A DNA stretch of 39,972 nt from contig JAFRWY010000054.1 in NCBI GenBank assembly GCA_017437905.1, forward strand, positions 1 to 39,972. The letters run 5' to 3'. Under the pieces are notes generated by a model, which did no database searches, was not told the origin of the DNA, and worked only from the letters and a program-made list of their open reading frames with translations. Source of the DNA: Eubacterium sp. (GTDB lineage: Bacteria > Bacillota > Clostridia > Lachnospirales > Lachnospiraceae). Of the stretch, positions 16,616 to 38,445 are shown one piece after another. The stretch's first letter is position 1. Each line of letters opens with the position of its first letter. A program made the position numbers and the translations under genes.

Positions 16616-16644
16616 TTGAAGAAACGATAGAAAAATGATATGAT
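16616..16644 (+). promoter_or_regulatory. promoter of the FHA-domain gene
   Basis: TTGAAG (16616-16621), a 17-base spacer ending TGA, and TATGAT (16639-16644). The -10 overlaps an upstream in-frame ATG at 16640, which shows that the real start must lie further downstream. Confidence 0.75.
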
Positions 16645-16672
16645 GAATGCGAATATGGGGAGGTATGGCAAC

Positions 16673-17596
16673 ATGGCTGATACAAGTACAAGTTATGATG
16701 AGTTTATACTGAATTTCCGGCTTGAGGAGAACGTTCCGGTAGATCAGAATGAGCTCACAATGTTTAATTATGAGTTTGTCGGAAACCGTACGACATGTAC
16801 GGTGGTTGAAACGGATGAGCAGAGGGCGCTTCAGTTTAAGATCCCTGCAACGCTTCCTTTGGAGCAGTTTCTTCAGAAACAGTTATATAAGGGCGAATTC
16901 CTTTCGATCCTTTCCAATATTCTGAATCAGATGATCTACTTTGATGAGAATCAGATGTCCTTCAATAAGCTGCTTCTCAATGTGCATTATATGTATATCG
17001 AGCTTTCAACGCTTGATATCCAGCTGATCTACATGCCGGTCATCAAGAAATTTGCCGACTGTAATGTGACGGAGTTTATTCAGACCTTTATCAGTAAGGT
17101 CCGTTTCGCAAATATGGCCTGTGTGGAGTGCGTAGAGAAGCTGCTGAAGTATCTGGACAACAAGCTGATGTTCGACCTGAATGATTTCTATCATTATGTG
17201 CTTTCACTGGAGGAGGAGACGATCCTGGAGGATTCCATGGATAAGACGTCTTCCGAGTCCCAGACTACGGTACTCAGTCCCACATCCTCGGATTACAACA
17301 ATCCGATCCCGTATCTGGTACGGATCAAGACAAATGAGCTGATCCCCATCATAAAGGCGGAATTCCTGATCGGAAAGTCTCCGGATGCGGATTACCAGAT
17401 AACGGACAACCGCCGTGTCAGCCGGAAGCATGCAACCTTCCGCATCAGCAACGGTGAGTGCTATGTCCGGGATCATAATTCCACCAACCACACCTTCATC
17501 AACGGCAAACTGATCCAGCCGGAGTTCGAGATCATGCTCGCGAATAATGACTACATCAGATTAGGAGATGAAGAGTTCAAGTACTGGGTTCGATAG
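16673..17596 (+). CDS. DUF6382 and FHA domain protein
   Basis: The 307-residue protein has an N-terminal domain of the DUF6382 type (about 1-190) and a C-terminal forkhead-associated domain (about 230-305). The FHA part shows the phosphothreonine-binding residues in IGKSPDADYQI, RRVSRKHATFRI and STNHTFINGK. FHA domains bind phosphothreonine made by Ser/Thr kinases, and a transmembrane kinase lies 6.7 kb downstream at 24291. The ATG at 16673 follows GGGGAGG by about ten bases. DUF6382-FHA proteins often sit in type IV pilus/Tad or type VII loci, but no such genes are present here. The binding partner is unknown. Confidence 0.88.
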   Translation: MADTSTSYDEFILNFRLEENVPVDQNELTMFNYEFVGNRTTCTVVETDEQRALQFKIPATLPLEQFLQKQLYKGEFLSILSNILNQMIYFDENQMSFNKLLLNVHYMYIELSTLDIQLIYMPVIKKFADCNVTEFIQTFISKVRFANMACVECVEKLLKYLDNKLMFDLNDFYHYVLSLEEETILEDSMDKTSSESQTTVLSPTSSDYNNPIPYLVRIKTNELIPIIKAEFLIGKSPDADYQITDNRRVSRKHATFRISNGECYVRDHNSTNHTFINGKLIQPEFEIMLANNDYIRLGDEEFKYWVR

Positions 17597-23620: not shown

Positions 23621-24055
23621 TCAGTTCAGGGGCTCTTCTCCGTATTTGTCCAGATAAAGGTTTGTGTCTATAACGGTTGCATGCTGATTGATCATTACCG
23701 TGAGGATGATGTCTCTCCGGTTCTTCGGATAGAGAGGAGCGGATTCGTTCAGCTCCAGTGCACGGGTTGTCTCACGGAGTGTAAGGCCTGCGCCGATGCA
23801 GAGCCGGAGCACCTTGTCTCTTCCTGGACGGCGGGAGCCCTTCATGATCTGGTAATAATAGGATTTCTCCACACCGCTTCGTTCGATCAGTTCCGAATCG
23901 GATAATTCCCGTACAGCGGGAAGCGAACGGAAATAAGATATAAAGTCATGGAAGGAATCCACCACCTTCGGGTGCTCCATGAACTGCTCCATACGCTTTT
24001 CATCCTGAATGTCTGAAAGGATATCTGCCAGCTTCTTTGTGGTTGATTCGTCCAT
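23621..24055 (-). CDS. XRE-like HTH regulator, paralogue 1
   Basis: The 144-residue protein has an HTH core in its middle (SELIERSGVEKSYYYQIMKG, then RPGRDKVLRLCIGAGLT) and a conserved tail (ALELNESAPLYPKNRRD). It is clearly paralogous to the protein at 26393: the block from KSYYYQIMKG through DKVLRLCIGAG to NESAPLY is shared almost residue for residue. AAGAAGGGA precedes the ATG. It is transcribed away from the kinase gene from a promoter at 24168-24196. A DNA-binding role is likely; its target is unknown, and it could compete with its paralogue for the palindromes at 26289, 26804 and 27374. Confidence 0.85.
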   Translation of the reverse strand: MDESTTKKLADILSDIQDEKRMEQFMEHPKVVDSFHDFISYFRSLPAVRELSDSELIERSGVEKSYYYQIMKGSRRPGRDKVLRLCIGAGLTLRETTRALELNESAPLYPKNRRDIILTVMINQHATVIDTNLYLDKYGEEPLN

Positions 24056-24196: not shown

Positions 24197-24290
24197 ATTC
24201 GATGGCATGAAGAGACCATCGGGTCCGACGCCATGGGGTGACCGGGGATCTAATTCCTGAAGATGATAGTTGGATATCGCGGAGAAAATG

Positions 24291-26288
24291 ATGGAACAGA
24301 TGGAAGACATCGTTCGCGGAGCGCTTTATACCGAGGTTCGGGCGCTTTCGGACGGGAAAAGTATTGTGATGGATCCGGAAACGGAACATTTGTATTACAG
24401 GAAGAAACTTTCCGTGTACAGTGTTCCGGTTTTTCGGTTTCTGAAAGAACATACGCATAAGAATCTTCCCTCGATCCATCTCTTCTGGAAAGAGGAAGGG
24501 AATCTCATAGTGATCGAGGAACTGATCCAGGGGAAAACGCTGGACTCACTGATCGATCAGAAAAGCATGCCCTTCGAAGAGAAGAAAAGGATTCTTCTGG
24601 AGATCTGTGACGGCCTTCAGTTTCTGCACGGAGCAAAGCCTCCGATCATTCACAGGGATATCAAGGCTTCCAATATCATGGTAACAGAGGATGGCACCGT
24701 AAAGATCATCGATTATGATGCGGCAAAGCAGTTTGTTGCCGAGAAAACGAAGGATACGGTCCTTATGGGAACGCAGGGGGTTGCGGCCCCGGAGCAGTAC
24801 GGATTCGGACAGTCGGACGAACGGACGGATATTTATGCTCTGGGAAAACTCCTGGAACGAATGATCCCGGAATCCGCACATGCCAGGGAGATCGTCCGGA
24901 AAGCCACCAGACTGGAGCCGGATCAGCGTTACGGAAATGTTGCGGAAATGCGGCAGCAGATCAGCCGCCTTTGGGATCCTTCGATTCCGGACAGTGTTCA
25001 CCGGAAGGAGCAGCTGAAGAAGGGACTGAAGGACAGGAGATTCCGTTGGACTGTACTGGCTGTGGCTTTGGCCGCGCTTCTGATCGGCGGCATACTCATT
25101 TTCAAGAATAAGATCTATCCGGAATATTTCGAGAAACGTCCGGCCTACAATAAAGGGATCGAACTGATGGCAGAGGGAGACTACGAAGGTGCGATCGAAC
25201 AGTTCAATATCTGCGGACTTGACTATGAGAATGCGGAACTCCAGGTGCGGGCATGTGAGATGGAAATGGGACGGCATCAGTACGAAACCGATGCCAAAAA
25301 CAAAGTGGAAGCCTGGAAGAATACTCCGGTGAATGTAAAGGAGACGGAGGCTTTGGAGGCCTGTGCCAGGGTTCTGGAGGAGGGCCTGGACAATGGTGAA
25401 TTCCTGGCGGATTTCTGCAGTGCACTCCTGCAGGAGGCGGAGCATTACGTTAAGGAGCAGAAGGTGGGACAGGCATCCCCGATCATCGTCACGCTGGCGA
25501 GGGCTCTGAAGGGAAAGGGCGGGAAGATCGAGACCGTACGAACGGATACGATCGAAGCCTATCGTAAACTGCTTTATGATGCGGGAGAGTACGAGGCCAT
25601 GGCAAGGCTCTACGCAGAACTCTCGGGGATTGACGGAAAAGACTATTCCCGGGAGATCACAGACTGTACCTATCAGCAGGCGTTAAAGGAGCTGGAGAAC
25701 GGGGCATATACAAAGGCGGCGGATACATTTCTCTCCATTTTCGATTATAAGGATTCAGCGGTTCAGAAAAGAAAGTGCAACTATCTCCTGGGAAAGAAAC
25801 TGATGGAGACCCGGAATTACAAAGAGGCGGTGAAGCAGTTTAATCTTGCCGATGACTATGAGGATGCGGCTGAAATGGCGAATATCTGTAAATACGATTA
25901 CTGTCAGGACCATCAGGACGAACCGGATGATCAGACAAGGTATTACCTGGATGACCTGAAGAAAGCCGGGTTCACCGGCGTCACGGAGCTTGCAACTGCC
26001 ATTGAAACCTGGAAGGTTTCCTTTGATGTTAAGGAACTCAGTTCGGATGAAGTGACCATAGATTTGAAGTTTTACGGCGGACCGAAGGATGGCATGAAAG
26101 GATACCGGGCCATCTGCCATACGTCGGATGGAGCTTCGAATACCTATACATCTACCAGAACCATAAGATCCGGGAATAGTGACAGCCTGAAGTTTCAGTA
26201 TCACGGATCCGGCCGTGCCTATAACCGGATCAAAAGCATCGAAATCTATGATCCGGAAGGACATATTATCGGAAAATATAATAAATGA
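24291..26288 (+). CDS. transmembrane Ser/Thr protein kinase with extracellular TPR-like region
   Basis: The 665-residue protein is a Hanks-type kinase at its N-terminus: catalytic loop HRDIKASN (His121-Asp123-Asn128), metal-binding Asp141 in a DYD variant of DFG, and APEQYGFGQSDERTDIYALG. The N lobe is short and lacks a clear glycine loop; Lys38/Lys39 in YYRKKL may be the ATP lysine. One membrane helix (about 253-275) leads to an outside region with TPR-like helical repeats (YNKGIELMAEGDYEGAIEQF; YQQALKELENGAYTKAADTF; GKKLMETRNYKEAVKQF). A C-terminal beta-rich domain ends IYDPEGHIIGKYNK. I chose the ATG at 24291, six bases from GGAG; 24288 is equally in frame. The stop abuts the first palindrome. 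Likely an envelope sensor; its phosphorylation targets are unknown. Confidence 0.88.
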   Translation: MEQMEDIVRGALYTEVRALSDGKSIVMDPETEHLYYRKKLSVYSVPVFRFLKEHTHKNLPSIHLFWKEEGNLIVIEELIQGKTLDSLIDQKSMPFEEKKRILLEICDGLQFLHGAKPPIIHRDIKASNIMVTEDGTVKIIDYDAAKQFVAEKTKDTVLMGTQGVAAPEQYGFGQSDERTDIYALGKLLERMIPESAHAREIVRKATRLEPDQRYGNVAEMRQQISRLWDPSIPDSVHRKEQLKKGLKDRRFRWTVLAVALAALLIGGILIFKNKIYPEYFEKRPAYNKGIELMAEGDYEGAIEQFNICGLDYENAELQVRACEMEMGRHQYETDAKNKVEAWKNTPVNVKETEALEACARVLEEGLDNGEFLADFCSALLQEAEHYVKEQKVGQASPIIVTLARALKGKGGKIETVRTDTIEAYRKLLYDAGEYEAMARLYAELSGIDGKDYSREITDCTYQQALKELENGAYTKAADTFLSIFDYKDSAVQKRKCNYLLGKKLMETRNYKEAVKQFNLADDYEDAAEMANICKYDYCQDHQDEPDDQTRYYLDDLKKAGFTGVTELATAIETWKVSFDVKELSSDEVTIDLKFYGGPKDGMKGYRAICHTSDGASNTYTSTRTIRSGNSDSLKFQYHGSGRAYNRIKSIEIYDPEGHIIGKYNK

Positions 26289-26305
26289 GTGGGCAGAGTG
26301 CCCAC
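26289..26305. promoter_or_regulatory. GTGGGC-N5-GCCCAC palindrome, copy 1
   Basis: A 17-bp palindrome starts immediately after the kinase stop and ends 21 bases before TATAAT (26327-26332). The -35 hexamer position (ACCAAA) does not match consensus and overlaps the palindrome, which suggests an activator site. The promoter serves HTH paralogue 2. Confidence 0.75.
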
Positions 26306-26326
26306 CAAATACGCATTTTCACCTTT

Positions 26327-26332
26327 TATAAT
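26327..26332 (+). promoter_or_regulatory. -10 box of HTH paralogue 2
   Basis: Perfect TATAAT with no good -35; start near 26339 gives a leader of about 54 bases to the ATG at 26393. Confidence 0.6.
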
Positions 26333-26392
26333 ACCATATGGAGTATGACACAGGAGTGTAATCCAATCGGTGTGAAGTGCAGGTTAAATGTG

Positions 26393-26797
26393 ATGGGGAA
26401 GCTCTCGTATAGTGATTTTGATGAATATGACAGAAAGGCGTTGGAAGCAGCCGGAGGAGATGTAACGGATACATTTGCAGATTATTATCGTTCTCGCAAG
26501 AATGCTAAGCAGAGAACCAATGCTGACCTGATCCTGAACTGTGATGTCGAAAAGTCATACTTCTACCAGATCATGAAAGGGAACCGTATCCCCAGTCGTG
26601 ACAAAGTGCTGCGTCTCTGTATAGGCGCCGGCTTCACAATCGAAGAAACCTCCTATGCCCTGATTCTGAATGAAAATGCACCTCTATACCTGAAACGAAG
26701 GCGAGACCGTGTGCTGGCTTTTGCAGTGGCGAAGGGGTTGTCGGTGACAGAGACGAATCTGTTGCTGGATGAACAGGGGGAAAAAACTTTACAATAG
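26393..26797 (+). CDS. XRE-like HTH regulator, paralogue 2
   Basis: The 134-residue protein shares the core KSYFYQIMKG, DKVLRLCIGAG and NENAPLYLKRRRD with paralogue 1 at 23621. I chose the ATG at 26393 because it gives a length and N-terminus similar to the paralogue; the frame is open back to 26285, where it overlaps the kinase stop, and the ribosome site is weak (AGG), so the start is uncertain. It is preceded by palindrome copy 1 and ends in palindrome copy 2, which doubles as its terminator. This arrangement fits autoregulation. Best candidate for the protein that binds the palindromes. Confidence 0.83.
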   Translation: MGKLSYSDFDEYDRKALEAAGGDVTDTFADYYRSRKNAKQRTNADLILNCDVEKSYFYQIMKGNRIPSRDKVLRLCIGAGFTIEETSYALILNENAPLYLKRRRDRVLAFAVAKGLSVTETNLLLDEQGEKTLQ

Positions 26798-26803
26798 AGA
26801 AGA

Positions 26804-26828
26804 GTGGGCAGGCTGCCCACCCTTTTTT
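26804..26828. promoter_or_regulatory. GTGGGC-N5-GCCCAC palindrome, copy 2, also a terminator
   Basis: The 17-bp palindrome (26804-26820) is followed by CCTTTTTTT, so in RNA it forms a terminator for HTH paralogue 2. It also lies 20 bases upstream of TATAAT (26841-26846) that serves the lipoprotein gene. One sequence thus serves both as terminator and as probable operator. Confidence 0.78.
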
Positions 26829-26840
26829 TGTTGGGAGGAG

Positions 26841-26846
26841 TATAAT
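26841..26846 (+). promoter_or_regulatory. -10 box of the small lipoprotein gene
   Basis: Perfect TATAAT; start near 26853 leaves about 21 bases before the ATG at 26874, just enough for the AAAGGAG ribosome site. There is no consensus -35. Confidence 0.65.
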
Positions 26847-26873
26847 TAAGCATAAAATGAAAGGAGTTTCAAA

Positions 26874-27233
26874 ATGAAAATAAAACGAGTTTTTATCTAT
26901 GCGGTGCTATTATCAATAGTACTGTGTGCTTGCGGAAACAATGGAATAAAGACGAAATGGTACATGACGAACGATGATGATTTCTGGATGGATATCAGTG
27001 ACAGTAGTATCAGTTTCTACAGTGTTCATACCGATGAACTGATGGCAAAGGCAGATGTGAGTATATCCAGTAATGAAATTGTGATATCCAACCCGGATAA
27101 ACTCGTGAAAGGGGCCCGTTATCTTTCAGAAGGCTTCTATACGTATGAAATTGAAGGGGATAAGCTGATTCTTCGTACCGGTAAGTATTCCGATACATTC
27201 AGCACAGATATAAAGTATAAACGGGATCATTGA
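26874..27233 (+). CDS. small lipoprotein of unknown function
   Basis: The 119-residue protein has a basic N-terminus, a hydrophobic stretch and lipobox LCAC with lipidated Cys20, so the mature protein is tethered to the outer face of the membrane. The mature part is about 100 residues, with alternating polar and hydrophobic residues (FWMDISDSSISFYSVHT, YTYEIEGDKLILRTGKYSD) suggesting a small beta-sheet domain. AAAGGAG precedes the ATG. It is a single-gene transcript between palindrome copy 2 and a terminator. The family is not recognised. Confidence 0.82.
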   Translation: MKIKRVFIYAVLLSIVLCACGNNGIKTKWYMTNDDDFWMDISDSSISFYSVHTDELMAKADVSISSNEIVISNPDKLVKGARYLSEGFYTYEIEGDKLILRTGKYSDTFSTDIKYKRDH

Positions 27234-27314
27234 TTGCATTAATCTTACTGCTTTAGAACGGAAGATATAGGTACTGTCTTAATGTGACCATTAAAATATC
27301 GGGATTAAGTAAGA

Positions 27315-27345
27315 AGGGTCTGGCAAATCGCCAGACCCTGTTTTG
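27315..27345 (+). terminator. terminator of the small lipoprotein gene
   Basis: AGGGTCTGGC (27315-27324) pairs perfectly with GCCAGACCCT (27330-27339) around a five-base loop, followed by GTTTTGT. Confidence 0.85.
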
Positions 27346-27373
27346 TGGGAGAAAAAGATAAATCCGATACGGA

Positions 27374-27390
27374 GTGGGCTTACTGCCCAC
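27374..27390. promoter_or_regulatory. GTGGGC-N5-GCCCAC palindrome, copy 3
   Basis: The third 17-bp palindrome, with inner bases TTACT, lies 21 bases before TATAAT (27412-27417). As with copy 1 there is no T-run, so it is not a terminator. Confidence 0.78.
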
Positions 27391-27411
27391 CAATTATGAA
27401 ACGGACGATTG

Positions 27412-27417
27412 TATAAT
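27412..27417 (+). promoter_or_regulatory. -10 box of the riboswitch-controlled operon
   Basis: Perfect TATAAT; start near 27424 puts the 5' end just before the aptamer core, as expected for a riboswitch transcript. The -35 position (ACCAAT) is poor. Confidence 0.7.
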
Positions 27418-27431
27418 AAAAAAGGAAAACG

Positions 27432-27548
27432 AACTGAACACTTGGTAAAATCACGGAAACGTGATGACACAAAGCTCCAGAGCCTTTCAAATGGTAGTCA
27501 GCTGCAATTCTGAAAGGAGGGCATTTTCTATTTTGATGCTCTTTTTTT
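27432..27548 (+). ncRNA. cyclic-di-GMP-I (GEMM) riboswitch with terminator expression platform
   Basis: The core reads GGTAAA, then a stem ATCACG/CGTGAT closed by a GAAA tetraloop (27456-27459), then GACACAAAGC. This aligns position by position with the GEMM-I core, with the ligand-contacting G at 27444 and A at 27471 both kept. The P3 arm follows (GCCTTTCA/TGAAAGG, 27482-27489 and 27511-27517) around TGGTAGTCAGCTGC. The AGGGCAT/ATGCTCT stem and T-run (27518-27548) directly abut P3 and form the switchable terminator. Guanine at the position that is adenine in cGAMP-selective members favours c-di-GMP. Whether the ligand turns the operon on or off cannot be read reliably. Confidence 0.82.
27518..27548 (+). 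terminator. riboswitch terminator
   Basis: AGGGCAT (27518-27524) and ATGCTCT (27536-27542) pair with one G-U, followed by a T-run. It lies 72 bases before the membrane-protein start, so it gates that gene and the one after it. Confidence 0.78.
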
Positions 27549-27620: not shown

Positions 27621-28913
27621 ATGAATAGAGAGACAACATTTGAATCAAATGTGAAATGGTTTGTAATGGGATTTGCCGGATTGACAGGGTTATGTCATTT
27701 AATCCTGTTATTTACAGAGTTTACTTTCTTTAAGTCGGCCGGGATGCTTTTTAATGGTATTTATCATTTGGCTGGGGTTTTGTGTCCCGTTCTTATCATT
27801 TTTCTTTTGATCAAGAGAAAAGAAGACAAAGAAGTATACTCCTGTTATTCAATAGGAATTCTTGGCTTTTTCGGAAGTGTTGCAGGAATATGCTTGTTGG
27901 TGAAGTATATTATCGATACAAATAGCACGGATGGACTGCAGATCTGGCTGACGGTGCTGATTTCTATTCTGGCAGTTTTCGAAATTGTATATGCAGTAGT
28001 ATTTATAAAGTTTGGTTTGGATAAGGTAACCTCGGTACTCCCATTATTACTAACAGGTATTCTTGTTATCATGAAAGGCTGTATATATAATGCGGTTGAT
28101 TCAAGGTTTAAGACTTATGCGCATGATTCTGTTGAAAAAACCATATTCTCGGTTTGGACGCTTATGTATCTGTTCGCATACTTAGGGATGATCATATGTC
28201 TGGTGCTATATCTGGATTCCGGATTTCTTCAGGAATTATTTCATAATCCGAAAGAGTGGTTCTCGAAGAAAGCATTGTTTGGAACCTATTCGAATCTATA
28301 CCTGAAGACAGATATTCCGACGACACATATTACTGAAGCGAGTGAATCGAAAAAACTGAACCGTCAGGGAGAACAGTATAGTCTTTCAAATCAAAATAAT
28401 ATGACTGGCCTGGATTTGGTTATTACGCAAAGTGTTTCATATGATCCTTTATTATATGAAAGTCGAGGGTCCGGTAACCTGGCAAATGGGGACGTCCTGA
28501 AATCTTATAGTGTAGGAGGGGGAATGAAGATGAAAAAAGCATTTAGTATAATTGGGATGATTATGGGACTGGCACTTATGGGTGTCGGGATATATATGTT
28601 CTTAGGGTTTGAGGAAAAGTATATCGGATATTCACCAATGAGTATTAAGTTTGGTGGGGATTATTATACTGAGCAATATGCTGTAACAAGACATGTGGCG
28701 GACAATGTGAATGAACTTGGTGAGTTTATGGAAGAGTCGATAGGTTTCGGATTCAAAGCAGGCGGGCTTATCGTCGCTTTGTTAGGGGGTATAGTTGTAT
28801 GCTTCTTTGCTTGTAAAGCTGCAGAAAATAATATGCCTCCGGTACAGTTGGCTTCTCGTATTACAAATAGTACTCCGCCCAAAGCGGAGAGTGATGAACT
28901 ACCTGAAATATAG
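27621..28913 (+). CDS. polytopic membrane protein of unknown function
   Basis: The 430-residue protein has about six hydrophobic helices in residues 10-200, a soluble stretch of about 100 residues, and two more helices (about 306-328 and 375-398) flanking a conserved-looking segment YIGYSPMSIKFGGDYYTEQYA. The codons are A+T-rich compared with the housekeeping genes. AGGGGT precedes the ATG at 27621. A strong internal site, GGAGGGGG, lies before in-frame ATG codons at 28524 and 28530, so a shorter two-helix product may also be made. It is followed 11 bases later by the zinc-ribbon/TPR gene. No family recognised. Confidence 0.8.
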   Translation: MNRETTFESNVKWFVMGFAGLTGLCHLILLFTEFTFFKSAGMLFNGIYHLAGVLCPVLIIFLLIKRKEDKEVYSCYSIGILGFFGSVAGICLLVKYIIDTNSTDGLQIWLTVLISILAVFEIVYAVVFIKFGLDKVTSVLPLLLTGILVIMKGCIYNAVDSRFKTYAHDSVEKTIFSVWTLMYLFAYLGMIICLVLYLDSGFLQELFHNPKEWFSKKALFGTYSNLYLKTDIPTTHITEASESKKLNRQGEQYSLSNQNNMTGLDLVITQSVSYDPLLYESRGSGNLANGDVLKSYSVGGGMKMKKAFSIIGMIMGLALMGVGIYMFLGFEEKYIGYSPMSIKFGGDYYTEQYAVTRHVADNVNELGEFMEESIGFGFKAGGLIVALLGGIVVCFFACKAAENNMPPVQLASRITNSTPPKAESDELPEI

Positions 28914-28924
28914 GAGAACGTATT

Positions 28925-30895
28925 ATGGGAAGATACATAGAATTATTCCGCATAAAACCGGAACAATACATAGCAGGCAGTCCGGTAATCATTGAAGCCG
29001 GGGCTTTGCAGAAAGATACGGAACAAAATAAGGTTCTGGCACAAATAAAAAACCGAAATGTCTCAGATGAAAAGATAATTGCATGCAAAGTAAAAATACG
29101 GGCATTTGAACCCAATGGAAATGAACTGAAGGGCATAGAGGATTATTCGTATTTGGATCTGAATGTTCCTACAGGCGGAGAGTTTGGTTCAAAGGTTCCG
29201 GTTTATCTGCCCGACATCAAAACAAGAGAATTCTCGGTTAAAGTGTTAGAGGTAGTATTCTCGAACAAATCAGTTTGGACATCAGATGAAAATGCTGAAG
29301 AATGGAATCAGATTCCACCCAGAAAGACGATAAATGAGTATTTTCTGAATTCTGAATTGATAAAGCAATACAATCTGGACGTGGGGGAGAACTTTAGATT
29401 TGTACCCGAAAACTATGAGGATCTTTTTCTGTGTTCATGTGGTGCGGTGACACGTTCCGCTGTTGGAAAGTGTTGTAGTTGTCATCGTACATATGACAGT
29501 TTTTCGCAGTATCTGGATCGGGACTACATGCAGCAACGAACAGACGACCGGATAAAACGGGAAAAGGATGAAGAAGAGGAAAGAAAACGTGCCGCAGCCA
29601 TTGCTGAAGAGCAAAAACGCAAGCAAGAGGAAACGAAGCGGAAAAAGAGAAAAAAAATACTATTCATTTTCTGTCCGATTACAGTTGTTGTAATTGTTCT
29701 TGCTTATCTTACACCGACAGTAATAATCCCCAAAATAAAAAACATGAGTGCATATTCAAAAGCCGAAAAACTGTTAAATGAAGGAATGTTTGATGATGCT
29801 CAGGCGGCATATGATGCGTTGGGGGACTATAACGATTCCCGGAACATGGTTTTTGAGTGTCAATATCAGAAGGCTGAATCATATTTGAAGGAAGGAAAAT
29901 ATGAGGATGCTATGGATATATGGAAAACACTGGGAGATTATTCCGATAGTCCTGACAGAATAATAAATGCAGAAGAAACGTGGAAAGAAAACGACTATCT
30001 GGCGGCAGAAGCTTTAGTCGAAGCAAATGATTTCATGAGGGCTAAAACTGCATTTGAGAAGCTGGATGGATATAAAGATTCAAAAGAAAGAGCGGAAGAG
30101 TGTATAGCACTTAAAAAGGAATTTGATTATCAGGAAGCGATTAAGTACGTCAATGAAAAGAAGTATAAAGAGGCAGTTGGTATTTTAAGAACAATAAAAA
30201 CATATAAAGAAGCCGGGGATTACTATAAAATGGCTGCCTACGGATATGCTGAACAGCTTGTAAGCGAGGGGAAATATGATGGTGCAATTTCTCATTATGT
30301 TGATGCTATCCAATACAAAGATGCAGCAGACCGCGTGCGGGATTTGAGATATATCTATGGTTGTAAACTCATGGAAGAAGCCAGATATGAAAAGGCTATA
30401 GAGCAACTGTCTAAATGTCAGGACTATAAAGATGCAAGGGATAAATTGTTGGATGCTGAATTTGGATATGTGTCTATGCCGGGAAGTCAAACAATCCTGA
30501 ATACGAAAACATATAATTATCTGAATATTTTAATTAAGGAGGGTTATCCAGGGGCAAAAAAACTGTATGATGAGATATTCGGTTTGAAAATCGAAGTTAC
30601 GGCGGTTAATAACAGTGAAGATAGTATGGTGAATTGTACCAGATTGAGTCGGTACGATACGATCTATTATCACTATAAAGTGGTAAATGGCGTGCCGGGT
30701 AAAGAAGAAAAAATAGTAATAAAAACAAAACTCCCGAATGCGAACGCCTCCACTTTTGATTATTCAGTTTATGCAGGGGTTGAATACTGGGTTTCTTCCT
30801 TTTACACATCAGGTGGAGCGTCCGGGACGGCTTCGGTTACCTTCTATGACTCAAAAGGAAATGTGGTCGGAAAAGGATCAGTTTCTTTGTACTGA
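28925..30895 (+). CDS. zinc-ribbon, single-pass membrane protein with extracellular TPR-like repeats
   Basis: The 656-residue protein starts with a beta-rich cytosolic domain (about 1-160), then a likely zinc site (Cys170-x-Cys172 and Cys183-Cys184-x-Cys186), then a charged coiled-coil-like stretch (about 205-243), then a membrane helix (about 245-268). Outside are seven or so TPR-like repeats (AEKLLNEGMFDDAQAAYDAL; AESYLKEGKYEDAMDIWKTL; AEQLVSEGKYDGAISHYVDA) and a C-terminal beta domain ending FYDSKGNVVGKGSVSLY. The outer half mirrors the kinase at 24291 in repeats and C-terminal domain. GGAGAA precedes the ATG. It is the last gene of the riboswitch operon. Perhaps a co-receptor or kinase partner; no enzymatic motif seen. 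Confidence 0.83.
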   Translation: MGRYIELFRIKPEQYIAGSPVIIEAGALQKDTEQNKVLAQIKNRNVSDEKIIACKVKIRAFEPNGNELKGIEDYSYLDLNVPTGGEFGSKVPVYLPDIKTREFSVKVLEVVFSNKSVWTSDENAEEWNQIPPRKTINEYFLNSELIKQYNLDVGENFRFVPENYEDLFLCSCGAVTRSAVGKCCSCHRTYDSFSQYLDRDYMQQRTDDRIKREKDEEEERKRAAAIAEEQKRKQEETKRKKRKKILFIFCPITVVVIVLAYLTPTVIIPKIKNMSAYSKAEKLLNEGMFDDAQAAYDALGDYNDSRNMVFECQYQKAESYLKEGKYEDAMDIWKTLGDYSDSPDRIINAEETWKENDYLAAEALVEANDFMRAKTAFEKLDGYKDSKERAEECIALKKEFDYQEAIKYVNEKKYKEAVGILRTIKTYKEAGDYYKMAAYGYAEQLVSEGKYDGAISHYVDAIQYKDAADRVRDLRYIYGCKLMEEARYEKAIEQLSKCQDYKDARDKLLDAEFGYVSMPGSQTILNTKTYNYLNILIKEGYPGAKKLYDEIFGLKIEVTAVNNSEDSMVNCTRLSRYDTIYYHYKVVNGVPGKEEKIVIKTKLPNANASTFDYSVYAGVEYWVSSFYTSGGASGTASVTFYDSKGNVVGKGSVSLY

Positions 30896-35788: not shown

Positions 35789-37090
35789 ATGAATCGACAT
35801 TGGAAAAAGGGGTTACTGATCGCAGCTTTAGCCGGCGGACTTGCGCTGACATCGGTTCCGGCACCGGCATTTGCAGCAACCACATCGGAGAACAGTGCGC
35901 TGGACACAACGGATCAGGGGACGAAGCGCTCCGGCTGGTTTGGAGCCAATGGAAAGTGGTTTTATTACGATCCGGTAACAGGAGAGAAGGCTGTGGGCTG
36001 GAAGAAGATCGCCGGAAAGGCAACTACATCCTGGTATTATTTTAACCAGTATGGTGTGATGCAGGTGGGCTGGAAGCTGATCGGTGGAAAATACTATCAC
36101 TTTGATTCCGAAGGCCGGATGCAGACCGGATGGCAGAAGATTTCGGGAAAATGGTACTTCCTGAAGGACGGTGTCATGAAGACCGGCTGGGTGAAGCTGG
36201 GCGGTTACTATTATTATTTCTCCCAGAAGACCGGCGCTGCAGTGACCGGCTGGGTTAAGACCGGAGACAAGTGGTATTACCTTAGTCCGTCGGATTATTC
36301 CATGATAACCGGGTGGCGGTATATTGATGACATCCGATACTACTTTGATCTGAAAAGTGGTGCTATGGCTGTTGGGTGGAAGCAGATCTCAGGAGAGTGG
36401 TATTATTTTAAAAAGAATGGTGAAAGAAATATCGGACTGACAAGAATCGGTGAGGATTTATACTTCTTCGATTATACAGGTGTGATGCAGAAAAACCGGA
36501 ATATCGGAGGAGTGAATCTGGCAGCAAATGGAAAAGTAAAACAGATCAAGTTTGAGGTGGATAACGGCGTAAACCTATACCGGGTCACGATCAATCCGGA
36601 CGGAAGTTTTCAGGGTACCATTCAGTATATTGGTGATCTTGGCACCAGTGAGGGAGCAAGAGATGGCTACGCTCTGACATGGTATAAATTCCATGGGGTT
36701 TTTTCTGATTTCATCAGTAACGGATCGATGATCACTACCATGAAAGTAAAGAGTTTCAAACTGGATAAACGTTATGAAAAAGAAGTTTGGAATGAAAACG
36801 GAGAGATTAAGGCAACCGAGAGGAATTATTACCAGGAGAGCATCATAGAAGAGTACAAGGCAGGAGCTTTGTTTACGCTTTATTTCCTGGGTGTATCCAG
36901 ATCATCAATCGAATATGCGATGAAATGTGCCATGAACAGTAGCTATGCTTATCTGGATCTCCCGTCGGTTTTTGGAGATCCGATCGAACAAATCTATCTG
37001 GATAATCTGGCAGGGTCTTTCAATTATCATGGGGGCGCCGGAAGAAAGATTGACAGAAGTGAAGTTCCTGCTTCCTACTGGAATTACTAA
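35789..37090 (+). CDS. secreted protein with choline-binding-type repeats, paralogue A
   Basis: The 433-residue protein has a signal peptide cleaved near AFA-ATT. It is followed by nine repeats of about 20 residues in the CW_binding/glucan-binding style (GWKLIGGKYYHFDSEGRMQT, GWQKISGKWYFLKDGVMKT). Its last third has the domain seen in the lipoproteins of this window (YRVTINPDGSFQG, then FTLYFLGV). GGAGGATATA precedes the ATG. Repeats of this type bind choline or other wall glycopolymers; the ligand here is unknown. The first four repeats are nearly identical in DNA to those of paralogue B. Confidence 0.88.
   Translation: MNRHWKKGLLIAALAGGLALTSVPAPAFAATTSENSALDTTDQGTKRSGWFGANGKWFYYDPVTGEKAVGWKKIAGKATTSWYYFNQYGVMQVGWKLIGGKYYHFDSEGRMQTGWQKISGKWYFLKDGVMKTGWVKLGGYYYYFSQKTGAAVTGWVKTGDKWYYLSPSDYSMITGWRYIDDIRYYFDLKSGAMAVGWKQISGEWYYFKKNGERNIGLTRIGEDLYFFDYTGVMQKNRNIGGVNLAANGKVKQIKFEVDNGVNLYRVTINPDGSFQGTIQYIGDLGTSEGARDGYALTWYKFHGVFSDFISNGSMITTMKVKSFKLDKRYEKEVWNENGEIKATERNYYQESIIEEYKAGALFTLYFLGVSRSSIEYAMKCAMNSSYAYLDLPSVFGDPIEQIYLDNLAGSFNYHGGAGRKIDRSEVPASYWNY
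35921..36190 (+). repeat. 270-bp near-identical block, copy A
   Basis: It aligns without gaps to 37357-37626 with four differences (about 98.5 percent identity). Flanking parts of the two genes are much less alike, so this looks like recent gene conversion or duplication. Confidence 0.93.
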
Positions 37091-37224: not shown

Positions 37225-38445
37225 ATGAATCAGCATTGGAAGAAGGGGATTTTGGTTGCTGCTTTGGCCGGAGGCCTTGCCCTTGCGGCGTCACCCGCAA
37301 CGGCTTATGCAGAAACAGCATCTGAGAATTGCGTGACGGACACGACGGATCAGGAGACGAAGCGCTCCGGCTGGTTTGGAGCCAATGGAAAGTGGTTTTA
37401 TTACGATCCGGTAACAGGAGAGAAGGCTGTGGGCTGGAAGAAGATCGCCGGAAAGTCAACCACATCCTGGTATTATTTTAACCAGTATGGTGTGATGCAG
37501 GTGGGCTGGAAGCTGATCGGTGGGAAATACTATCACTTTGATTCCGAAGGCCGGATGCAGACCGGATGGCAGAAGATTTCGGGAAAATGGTACTTCCTGA
37601 AGGGCGGTGTCATGAAGACCGGCTGGATAAAACAAGGCGGGGTGTATTATTATTTTGCTCCGAAAACCGGTGCAGCAGTGACCGGAGCTCAGAAGATCAA
37701 TGGTAAGTGGTACTACTTCGATGAGAGCTCTCTGGCCATGAAGACCGGTTTGATCACAATCGATGGTGAAAAGTATTTCTTCAAACCGGGCACAGGTACC
37801 CTGGCTACCGGGTGGGTTAAGGACAATGGCGATTGGTATTATTGCAAATCAAACGGATCTGTAACCCGAGGGCTGGCATGGATTGGGAATGCGTTCTACG
37901 CTTTCGATACCAATGGCAGAATGCTGAAAAATATGACAGTCGGAACCAATGAAGATGATAATTGGTATAACGCGAGAAGCGGGTATGTTGAATTGGACGC
38001 AAACGGGGAAGGCGATAGGATAAAAATATATGTCGGTGATTCTCAGCACAAATGGTATCGTCTGGAGCTTTATTCGGATGGAACCTTCAGCGGAACGGGT
38101 GAAAAACGTCAGAAGACAGAGGAACCCGGTGTGGTTAATCAAGATCTCGTAAAGTTTTCCGGTAGATTTGCAAATTTCAGAAAAATCGGAGATTATGGAT
38201 ATTCAATGAAGATCCAATCCGTATCCGGTGTTGAAAACTTCGATGAGCTGGATGCATATAAAGAGTTTACAAAGGGTGCAACGTTTTATTTGTATTTCCC
38301 CGGGACAGGAAAAGATAAGCTTGTAACCGGATTTGATCAGAATTTCTGTTTATTTGATAACGGAAACCAATTGAAAAATGTTGTATTGGATAATCCGGAT
38401 AATTCAGGTTTCACTCCATATGACGGTGATAATTCTTTCCGGTAA
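37225..38445 (+). CDS. secreted protein with choline-binding-type repeats, paralogue B
   Basis: The 406-residue protein has a signal peptide ending near AYA-ETA, nine repeats (from GWFGANGKWFYY to GLAWIGNAFYAFDTNGRMLK), and the same C-terminal domain (WYRLELYSDGTFSG, FATFYLYFPG-like region read as GATFYLYFPGTG). TTGGAGG precedes the ATG. It follows paralogue A by 134 bases and may have its own promoter: TAGTTT and AAACTA arms lie at about 37168-37191. The N-terminal repeats match A almost exactly while the rest has diverged. Cell-surface adhesion or wall binding is the likely job. Confidence 0.88.
   Translation: MNQHWKKGILVAALAGGLALAASPATAYAETASENCVTDTTDQETKRSGWFGANGKWFYYDPVTGEKAVGWKKIAGKSTTSWYYFNQYGVMQVGWKLIGGKYYHFDSEGRMQTGWQKISGKWYFLKGGVMKTGWIKQGGVYYYFAPKTGAAVTGAQKINGKWYYFDESSLAMKTGLITIDGEKYFFKPGTGTLATGWVKDNGDWYYCKSNGSVTRGLAWIGNAFYAFDTNGRMLKNMTVGTNEDDNWYNARSGYVELDANGEGDRIKIYVGDSQHKWYRLELYSDGTFSGTGEKRQKTEEPGVVNQDLVKFSGRFANFRKIGDYGYSMKIQSVSGVENFDELDAYKEFTKGATFYLYFPGTGKDKLVTGFDQNFCLFDNGNQLKNVVLDNPDNSGFTPYDGDNSFR
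37357..37626 (+). repeat. 270-bp near-identical block, copy B
   Basis: Partner of 35921-36190; the four differences give two or fewer residue changes in the affected repeats (Ala to Ser, Asp to Gly). Confidence 0.93.

Follow-up and report, generated by a model that had tools for sequence, protein, structure and literature searches.

Palindromic sites at a fixed distance from -10 boxes in a Eubacterium kinase locus, candidate operators of small XRE-like regulators

ComR/Rgg-type activators of streptococci join an XRE helix-turn-helix (HTH) to a C-terminal peptide-binding TPR domain, and lambda cI at PRM offers the geometry of an HTH dimer placed near position -42. One report describes ComR promoters as having an inverted repeat about 20 nucleotides (nt) before TATAAT and no -35 element, the ComR box being part of a terminator stem in some species (PMC4072589). 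The C proteins of restriction-modification systems are presented in a second report as small dimeric proteins that recognize palindromic boxes and turn on their own gene; they are described there as using a pair of operators, as changing over to repression and as contacting sigma via SQE, and lambda cI is described as touching sigma region 4 (PMC4824078). A third gives the eukaryotic-like serine/threonine (Ser/Thr) kinases of Gram-positive bacteria as few per genome and pleiotropic in their targets (PMC4601284). Here we analyze a stretch of 39,972 nt from Eubacterium sp. (assembly GCA_017437905.1, contig JAFRWY010000054.1, positions 1 to 39,972; hereafter the window), in which three copies of the palindrome GTGGGC-N5-GCCCAC precede TATAAT boxes at a locus where two small paralogous HTH genes, HTH1 and HTH2, flank a membrane Ser/Thr kinase gene. 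Literature searches, which covered titles and the openings of abstracts, turned up no description of the palindrome or of the HTH regulator family.

A rare palindrome at a fixed distance from the -10 box

The first-pass annotation of the window had reported three exact palindromes with gaps of 21, 20 and 21 nt to TATAAT. Both the sequences and the gaps were verified:

26289..26305, plus strand: palindrome 1, GTGGGC-N5-GCCCAC, directly 3' of the kinase stop codon
26327..26332, plus strand: -10 box of promoter 1, 21 nt 3' of palindrome 1
26804..26820, plus strand: palindrome 2, GTGGGC-N5-GCCCAC, which also forms a terminator-like stem followed by a T7 tail to about 26829
26841..26846, plus strand: -10 box of promoter 2, 20 nt 3' of palindrome 2
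27374..27390, plus strand: palindrome 3, GTGGGC-N5-GCCCAC, an exact copy
27412..27417, plus strand: -10 box of promoter 3, 21 nt 3' of palindrome 3

With up to two mismatches to the palindrome allowed, the window holds no match besides the three exact sites. Across 500 dinucleotide shuffles of the window, the exact GTGGGC palindrome had a mean of 0.004 and a maximum of 1, compared with 3 in the real sequence, and any perfect 6-N5-6 palindrome 20 or 21 nt 5' of TATAAT had a mean of 0.006 and a maximum of 1, again compared with 3. A genome-wide search for the palindrome with TATAAT 20-21 nt further on, which the first-pass annotation had proposed, found the site to be rare and its promoter copies to be confined to the window: the exact palindrome occurs five times in the 3.09-megabase genome, three times within the window and twice within coding sequences, where no -10 box stands at 21 nt. 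The pattern of palindrome, C, a 21-nt gap and TAWAAT, searched with up to three mismatches, occurs in this genome only at these three places, site 2 scoring three mismatches owing to its 20-nt gap. A relaxed search with two mismatches returned 62 places in the same genome as against 167 for a reversed control and was uninformative. Judged from sequence, and as far as the pattern shows, the regulon is local in its own genome and comprises no more than three promoters.

We then considered 61 genomes of the genus, including this one (handles in G denote genomes, those in L fetched loci). The GTGGGC palindrome was found at 39 places in 17 of the 61 genomes, while a reversed control was found at 2. 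Merging two duplicate pairs left 37 unique contexts, 5 of which were counted as coding and 32, site 1 among them, as intergenic. With a -10 box defined as a hexamer that agrees with TATAAT in 5 or more of its 6 positions, 24 of the 64 orientations of the intergenic sites had such a box precisely 21 nt away, and no other spacing from 0 to 54 nt had more than 5; the 10 orientations of the five coding sites showed no -10 box at any spacing, and intergenic palindromes without a -10 box near 21 nt occur in L078, L082 and L087. The consensus of the 29 genus promoters with a -10 box at 21 nt, a set that holds sites 1 and 3 and leaves site 2 outside because of its gap, reads GTGGGC-N5-GCCCAC-CA-a-...-TAtAAT. 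Setting the -10 box at -12 to -7 puts the two ends of the palindrome at -50 and -34 and its center at -42, 30 nt before the start of the box, which fits the class II operator position of -41 to -42 (site 2 is 1 nt short). The first-pass annotation had seen no recognizable -35 element, and for sites 1 and 3 this is borne out within the 29-promoter set: at 16-18 nt, all 29 match TTGACA in only 1-2 of 6 positions, whereas plus-strand TAWAAT sites in the same loci match in at least 3 of 6 in 418 of 814 cases and in 2 or fewer in 396, with the caveat that the right arm of the palindrome itself restricts the letters at the -35 position. The same search in relatives showed that the site keeps its 21-nt spacing there and goes with the kinase/HTH locus, and we regard the palindrome with a -10 box at 21 nt as what is, by these criteria of sequence, a conserved promoter type.

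The geometry also emerges when the arms are left free. In 35 loci that had been fetched solely for an HTH hit (251,636 bases), a perfect 6-N5-6 palindrome whose arms each contain two or more G or C precedes a -10-like hexamer 17 times at a spacing of 21 nt and 0-4 times at each other spacing between 14 and 28; when only palindromes ending 21 nt before the hexamer were considered, a loop of 5 was found 17 times and every other loop length from 0 to 12 was found 0-4 times. The only arms recurring in at least two loci at this spacing and loop are GTGGGC (six loci), GTGTCA (five) and GTATGC (two). Earlier scans of 49 loci, which included loci fetched for the N5 palindrome and are therefore biased to loop 5 and to those arms, agreed with this pattern (34 hits at a spacing of 21 nt and 36 with a loop of 5). 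A chance origin of the sites was rejected on the shuffles, the genus counts, the spacing preference and the arm-independent scan.

Recognition helices and palindrome classes

The locus around the sites comprises the following genes:

23621..24055, minus strand: HTH1, a 144-amino-acid (aa) XRE-like regulator with helix VEKSYYYQ (class A) and an N-terminal Thr-Thr
24270..26288, plus strand: membrane Ser/Thr kinase, start codon uncertain (Pfam Pkinase, 90.6 bits)
26393..26797, plus strand: HTH2, a 134-aa paralogue of HTH1 with a class A helix and without the Thr-Thr

The start of HTH2 was placed at the ATG at 26393 because relatives start there. In Pfam, HTH_31 was the only match of HTH1 and HTH2, below its curated cut-off of 27 (24.7 bits for HTH1, and 22.3 bits), and no further Pfam domain was found in either protein. 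The nearest solved structures by profile are C.AhdI and C.BclI (E values 0.0019 and 0.0037). Homologues of HTH1 with at least 50% identity are present in 14 of the 61 genus genomes. A kinase lies within 3 kilobases (kb) of the HTH in 16 of 20 cases for class A, 14 of 14 for class B, 4 of 6 for class C, 4 of 5 for class D and 8 of 9 for unclassed or misframed HTHs. The N-terminal threonines are frequent in the HTH alignment (T5 in 24 and T6 in 27 of 29 ungapped rows), and by motif rule the Thr-Thr is present in 29 of 47 class A, 11 of 13 class B, 3 of 3 class C and 0 of 3 class D proteins. Models of anti-phage systems matched the kinase through the kinase domains of several systems and matched neither HTH. 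The window also encodes a DUF6382-FHA protein (16640-17596, Pfam), a possible reader of phospho-threonine.

Palindrome sequence and helix class vary together. The class A helix (EKSYYYQ) goes with GTGGGC-N5-GCCCAC, the class B helix SRTYCYQ adjoins GTATGC-N5-GCATAC and the class C helix LEHSFCNK adjoins GTGTCA-N5-TGACAC, the latter two in the same frame. Among the 61 genomes, a class A HTH and a GTGGGC promoter occur together in 13, the HTH only in 2, the site only in 2 and neither in 44 (Fisher p 1.6e-9); the corresponding counts are 11, 4, 1 and 45 for class B with GTATGC (p 3.6e-8) and 5, 3, 0 and 53 for class C with GTGTCA (p 9.4e-6), p-values that are too small, given that the genomes are related and not independent. 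The six off-class pairs of helix and site gave p of 0.28 or more. The underlying table was assembled by hand: a site counts if a -10 box with at least 4 of 6 matches stands at 21 nt (TAWAAT being required for class C), a threshold barely passed by the GTGGGC site of G006 and the GTATGC site of G014, and HTHs with weak E values in long frames were not classed.

Nine genomes were named as expected carriers of GTATGC-N5-GCATAC-N21-TAWAAT ahead of the genome search, and five of them have GTATGC with a -10 box at 21 nt, reading TAWAAT as predicted in G077, G029 and G023 and TATCAT in G067 and G071. The prediction failed in G063, which has the palindrome without a -10 box, and in G012, G033 and G027, which have no palindrome. 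Twelve of the 19 unique GTATGC contexts inspected have a -10 box with 4 or more of 6 matches at the 21-nt spacing; the other seven, among them L241 with TATATA, have none; the GTATGC site of G022 was seen in locus L045. GTGTCA-N5-TGACAC-N21-TAWAAT occurs in 5 of the 61 genomes, and in each of them the same contig encodes a class C HTH; these five were known beforehand, and the new information is its absence from the other 56.

When 83 HTHs were placed on a maximum-likelihood tree, a single clade was formed by each of classes B, C and D and two separate ones by class A, the first in the genus and its kin, with which B and C group, and the second in more distant Clostridia. At 26-33% identity to HTH1, members of the distant clade still have the E/D-K/R-S helix motif and go with GTGGGC, and therefore the site follows the helix and not overall kinship. 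Given the long branches and weak root of the tree, the distant clade may reflect either retention or convergence. Another HTH paralogue of the own genome (L258 3037-3453, contig C26, helix LDSSYGHR) groups with this distant clade, and no site was found in its locus. An intermediate pair is present as well: the second HTH of G088, with helix IERTYLYQ, adjoins GTGTGC-N5-GCACAC-N21-TAGAAT (L288). Taken together, the pairs hint that the first helix residue may read arm base 3 and the third base 4, although class C, in which E-H-S goes with GTGTCA, misfits the latter part. Since helix class and palindrome sequence co-vary, the adjacent HTH family is most likely the binder.

Other helices were seen beside other sites or none. 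In L262 and L263, helices IPERYGYK or VPERYGYK lie beside 19-nt palindromes with a 7-nt loop, 21 nt before TATAAT, and are perhaps a fourth class with shifted geometry; a class D, with helix IPE[RK]YGYK, is not claimed, as it would rest on two loci whose N7 palindromes have different arms. No convincing site was found at the loci of helices ERTFAEHM and ERSFGYK.

In 84,980 species genomes the palindrome followed by N21 and TAWAAT was found in 86 stretches, some of them in genus genomes already counted, compared with about 15 expected by chance from a base-count estimate; among the 80 of 86 stretches listed, 69 are titled as Bacillota, 34 of these under the name Lachnospiraceae. In loci chosen by this DNA pattern and searched with class A queries, an HTH homologue was found in 32, of class A in 30 and of class B, C or D in none, the other two being unclassed (L131) and a fragment (L123). 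In an even sample of 392 genomes of the order the class A promoter was found in just one besides the own genome, G088, with a spacing of 21 nt though 14-28 were allowed; a class A HTH is encoded some 2 kb away from it. A family sample of 397 genomes yielded the class B promoter in G022 and in one other, G405, where the HTH beside the GTATGC site has helix IQRNYGYQ, close to but outside the class B rule. In the samples drawn, such promoters are rare outside the genus.

Target genes, proposed control and alternatives

Downstream of HTH2 the window carries these features:

26874..27233, plus strand: small lipoprotein-like protein, target 2 (no Pfam family)
27315..27339, plus strand: terminator-like hairpin after the lipoprotein gene
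27434..27509, plus strand: c-di-GMP-I riboswitch aptamer (Rfam RF01051, 50.6 bits, gathering cut-off 35)
27512..27548, plus strand: hairpin with a U-rich 3' side, a possible expression platform or terminator (predicted fold, z -0.53 against shuffles)
27621..28913, plus strand: membrane protein, target 3
28925..30895, plus strand: TPR protein with an apparent membrane span, in the same operon as the membrane protein

Promoter 3 leads into the cyclic di-GMP (c-di-GMP) riboswitch in the leader of the membrane-protein/TPR operon, which would accordingly have a second control; the stretch folded as the hairpin behind the aptamer is no stabler than its shuffles. The C-terminal part of the kinase resembles the TPR protein. 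Of 17 further loci that were scanned, three (L080, L089 and L143) have the same aptamer behind a palindrome promoter. In relatives, the genes that come first after the promoters include those of surface proteins, HTH1- and HTH2-type regulators (HTH2-type genes in L046, L047, L048 and L083), kinases and relatives of the membrane protein 27621..28913 (L050, L055, L077, L090 and L092). Pfam analysis of 17 chosen first genes gave five with BspA LRR, four with Big_2, one choline-binding, one ChW, three zinc ribbon (one also with an SPFH domain, one below cut-off), one kinase and three without a family. For 90 promoters from the genus and the genome-scan loci, with the window's own sites left out, an open reading frame (ORF) within 700 nt was found in 81, and an N-terminal hydrophobic stretch is present in 42 of these 81 first ORFs compared with 353 of all 1,214 ORFs in those loci, a background that includes spurious ORFs (p 2.8e-5). 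Genes behind class B and C sites look, by eye and from their first residues, largely membrane or lipoprotein-like. Elsewhere in the window, 35789-37090 and 37225-38445 encode tandem paralogues with near-identical N-terminal repeats, cell-wall-binding-like by eye, and differing C-terminal parts.

We consider it likely that small XRE-like HTH activators, whose genes lie beside that of the kinase, use the palindromes as operators, and class II activation is suggested by the lack of a -35 element and the center near -42. HTH1, and probably also its paralogue HTH2, would bind GTGGGC-N5-GCCCAC as a dimer centered at about -42 and recruit sigma-A RNA polymerase, substituting for the -35 at a promoter with a good -10 box. 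The activator would drive HTH2, probably the small lipoprotein, and the membrane-protein/TPR operon, whose transcript may need two signals, activator and riboswitch, because it also carries the c-di-GMP-I aptamer. Gene neighborhood and the N-terminal Thr-Thr suggest that the kinase may be a sensor controlling HTH1, perhaps by phosphorylation of this conserved motif, which HTH2 lacks. These were the three targets named by the first-pass annotation: HTH2 and the membrane-protein/TPR operon stand behind sites 1 and 3, and the lipoprotein is only probable, site 2 being the least certain of the three on account of its 20-nt gap and hairpin. The proposal of a local regulon with an activator over the -35 fits what was found, in that the site is rare, keeps its spacing and follows the kinase/HTH locus.

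The regulon would be local in its own genome and yet one of a family of kinase-linked regulons. More tentatively, and with the balance somewhat against it, this family may be two-component-like, pairing a membrane Ser/Thr kinase with a small XRE activator and duplicated into insulated specificity classes. In such a scheme the frame of 6-N5-6, 21 nt and -10 box would be frozen while helix and palindrome change together, as in the pairs E-K/R-S with GTGGGC, S-R-T with GTATGC, E-H-S/A with GTGTCA and E-R-T beside GTGTGC. The kinase would phosphorylate the N-terminal Thr-Thr tag of HTH1; HTH2, made from a target promoter and without the tag, would be an unphosphorylatable feedback partner; and c-di-GMP riboswitches would be a second input at some target genes.

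Several observations weigh against operators read by the adjacent HTH activators. At two mismatches the number of sites in the window is by itself unremarkable (shuffle mean 1.18, with 10 of 100 shuffles reaching 3), GTATGC palindromes in the genus number 20 compared with 8 for the reversed control, and in the order sample the reversed control, with 20 places in 13 genomes, exceeds the 4 real ones (3 of them in the own genome), so that rarity outside the genus is not separable from chance by counts. Within the window, site 2 is an outlier in its 20-nt gap and its T7 hairpin, site 1 lies inside the longest HTH2 reading frame (from 26285) and is counted as intergenic solely because relatives place the HTH2 start at 26393, a fourth TATAAT at 26277 goes with no palindrome, and HTH1 has an ordinary TTGACA/TATCAT promoter of its own without a palindrome. 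The relatedness of the genomes, noted with the p-values above, belongs here too, as do the mismatched pairs: G023 has a GTGGGC promoter and solely a class B HTH was found there, L131 has GTGGGC beside an unclassed helix, the class A HTHs of G081 and G035 have no site, the class B HTHs of G012, G033, G063 and G027 have no matching promoter, and the weak GTATGC promoter (TAAGAT) of G014 is not accompanied by a class B HTH. G027 carries GTGGGC promoters, yet neither the contig searched nor the genome-wide HTH1 search yielded a class A HTH; the same contexts recur in L147, L161 and L174 (Eubacterium ruminantium FB3002). These G027 promoters lie on two contigs (L074, L075 and L076), L075 having group II intron matches in Rfam. 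Genes on these contigs resemble those of conjugative elements, and in this genome a mobile element may carry the regulon or have borrowed it.

A site fixed over the -35 position could also repress, and the adjacent HTH might bind the palindromes only to block polymerase there. Many XRE proteins are repressors, HTH1 and HTH2 genes often carry the site, as negative autoregulation predicts, and the residue with which C proteins contact sigma is not conserved, the aligned column (E of SQE) being E in just 9 of 74 HTHs. We nevertheless think repression unlikely, for repressors tolerate several operator positions whereas this palindrome is fixed at 21 nt, and the -35 needed by an ordinary repressed promoter is missing. 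The column next to the C-protein contact is E or D in 54 of 74 HTHs; this acidic helix-2 column was dropped as a candidate sigma contact because the alignment places the C-protein contact one column earlier, and the alignment thus lends a sigma contact by the HTHs no support. A regulator encoded elsewhere, with the HTH and kinase genes merely among its targets, would suit the exceptions in G027, G023 and L131 and the presence of HTH and kinase genes themselves behind the promoter in several loci. It is improbable in view of the joint change of palindrome and helix between clades of one family and of the intermediate IERTYLYQ helix beside an intermediate GTGTGC site.

We give very little credence to the idea that the palindromes are RNA hairpins, terminators or attenuators, with incidental -10 boxes. 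Its best case is site 2, which follows the HTH2 stop codon, has a T7 tail and folds more stably than shuffles (z -3.35), and a T run lies behind the palindrome also in L055, L080, L086, L088, L104, L128 and L138. However, sites 1 and 3 continue with CAAAT and CAATT, neither of which is a T run, hairpins require no -10 box at 21 nt, and T-run sites such as those of L080, L104, L128 and L138 have the gap of 21 nt that site 2 lacks. In L120, L129, L170 and L171, moreover, a single palindrome has a -10 box at 21 nt on both strands and is common to divergent transcripts. A terminator or attenuator is kept as a possible second role of site 2. A mobile or REP (repetitive extragenic palindromic)-like repeat was rejected, as just the arms and a short flank are common and the copies stand at promoters, and an alternative sigma factor is not favored, as the -10 box is TATAAT-like and the upstream palindrome changes with the HTH helix.

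If activation by the adjacent HTH family holds, rumen and gut Clostridia would offer a readable regulon, in which a helix leads to a guessed operator and from there to genes possibly answering a Ser/Thr kinase, and what these kinases signal to would become testable. Natural pairs of helix and site, which fall into three or more classes and include an apparent intermediate, could also be a clean system for DNA-recognition codes and orthogonal promoters.

Comparison with described regulators

The closest parallels lie with small or XRE-type activators. As at ComR promoters, an inverted repeat about 20 nt before TATAAT goes with the lack of a -35 element, and site 2 lies in a terminator-like stem; unlike ComR, the HTHs of the window are 134-144 aa long with no second matched domain, have a Ser/Thr kinase neighbor and use other palindromes. 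The C-terminal TPR domain of ComR/Rgg was not among the Pfam matches of HTH1 and HTH2, HTH_31 being the only one. The C proteins (C.AhdI, C.BclI and C.Csp231I), themselves XRE-type activators, include the nearest solved structures, but the window system has one operator and a kinase neighbor, and the SQE contact is not conserved at the aligned column; among the nine window proteins covered by the Pfam scan, to which this search was limited, no restriction or methylase gene was found. The HTH site is centered near -42 as for lambda cI at PRM, from which the system differs in that no tandem operators were seen and no further domain was matched in HTH1 or HTH2. Finally, the system resembles the Ser/Thr kinase-controlled regulators of Gram-positive bacteria in having a kinase that may feed into transcription, and differs from them in that the HTH genes lie beside the kinase genes and have their own operator class.

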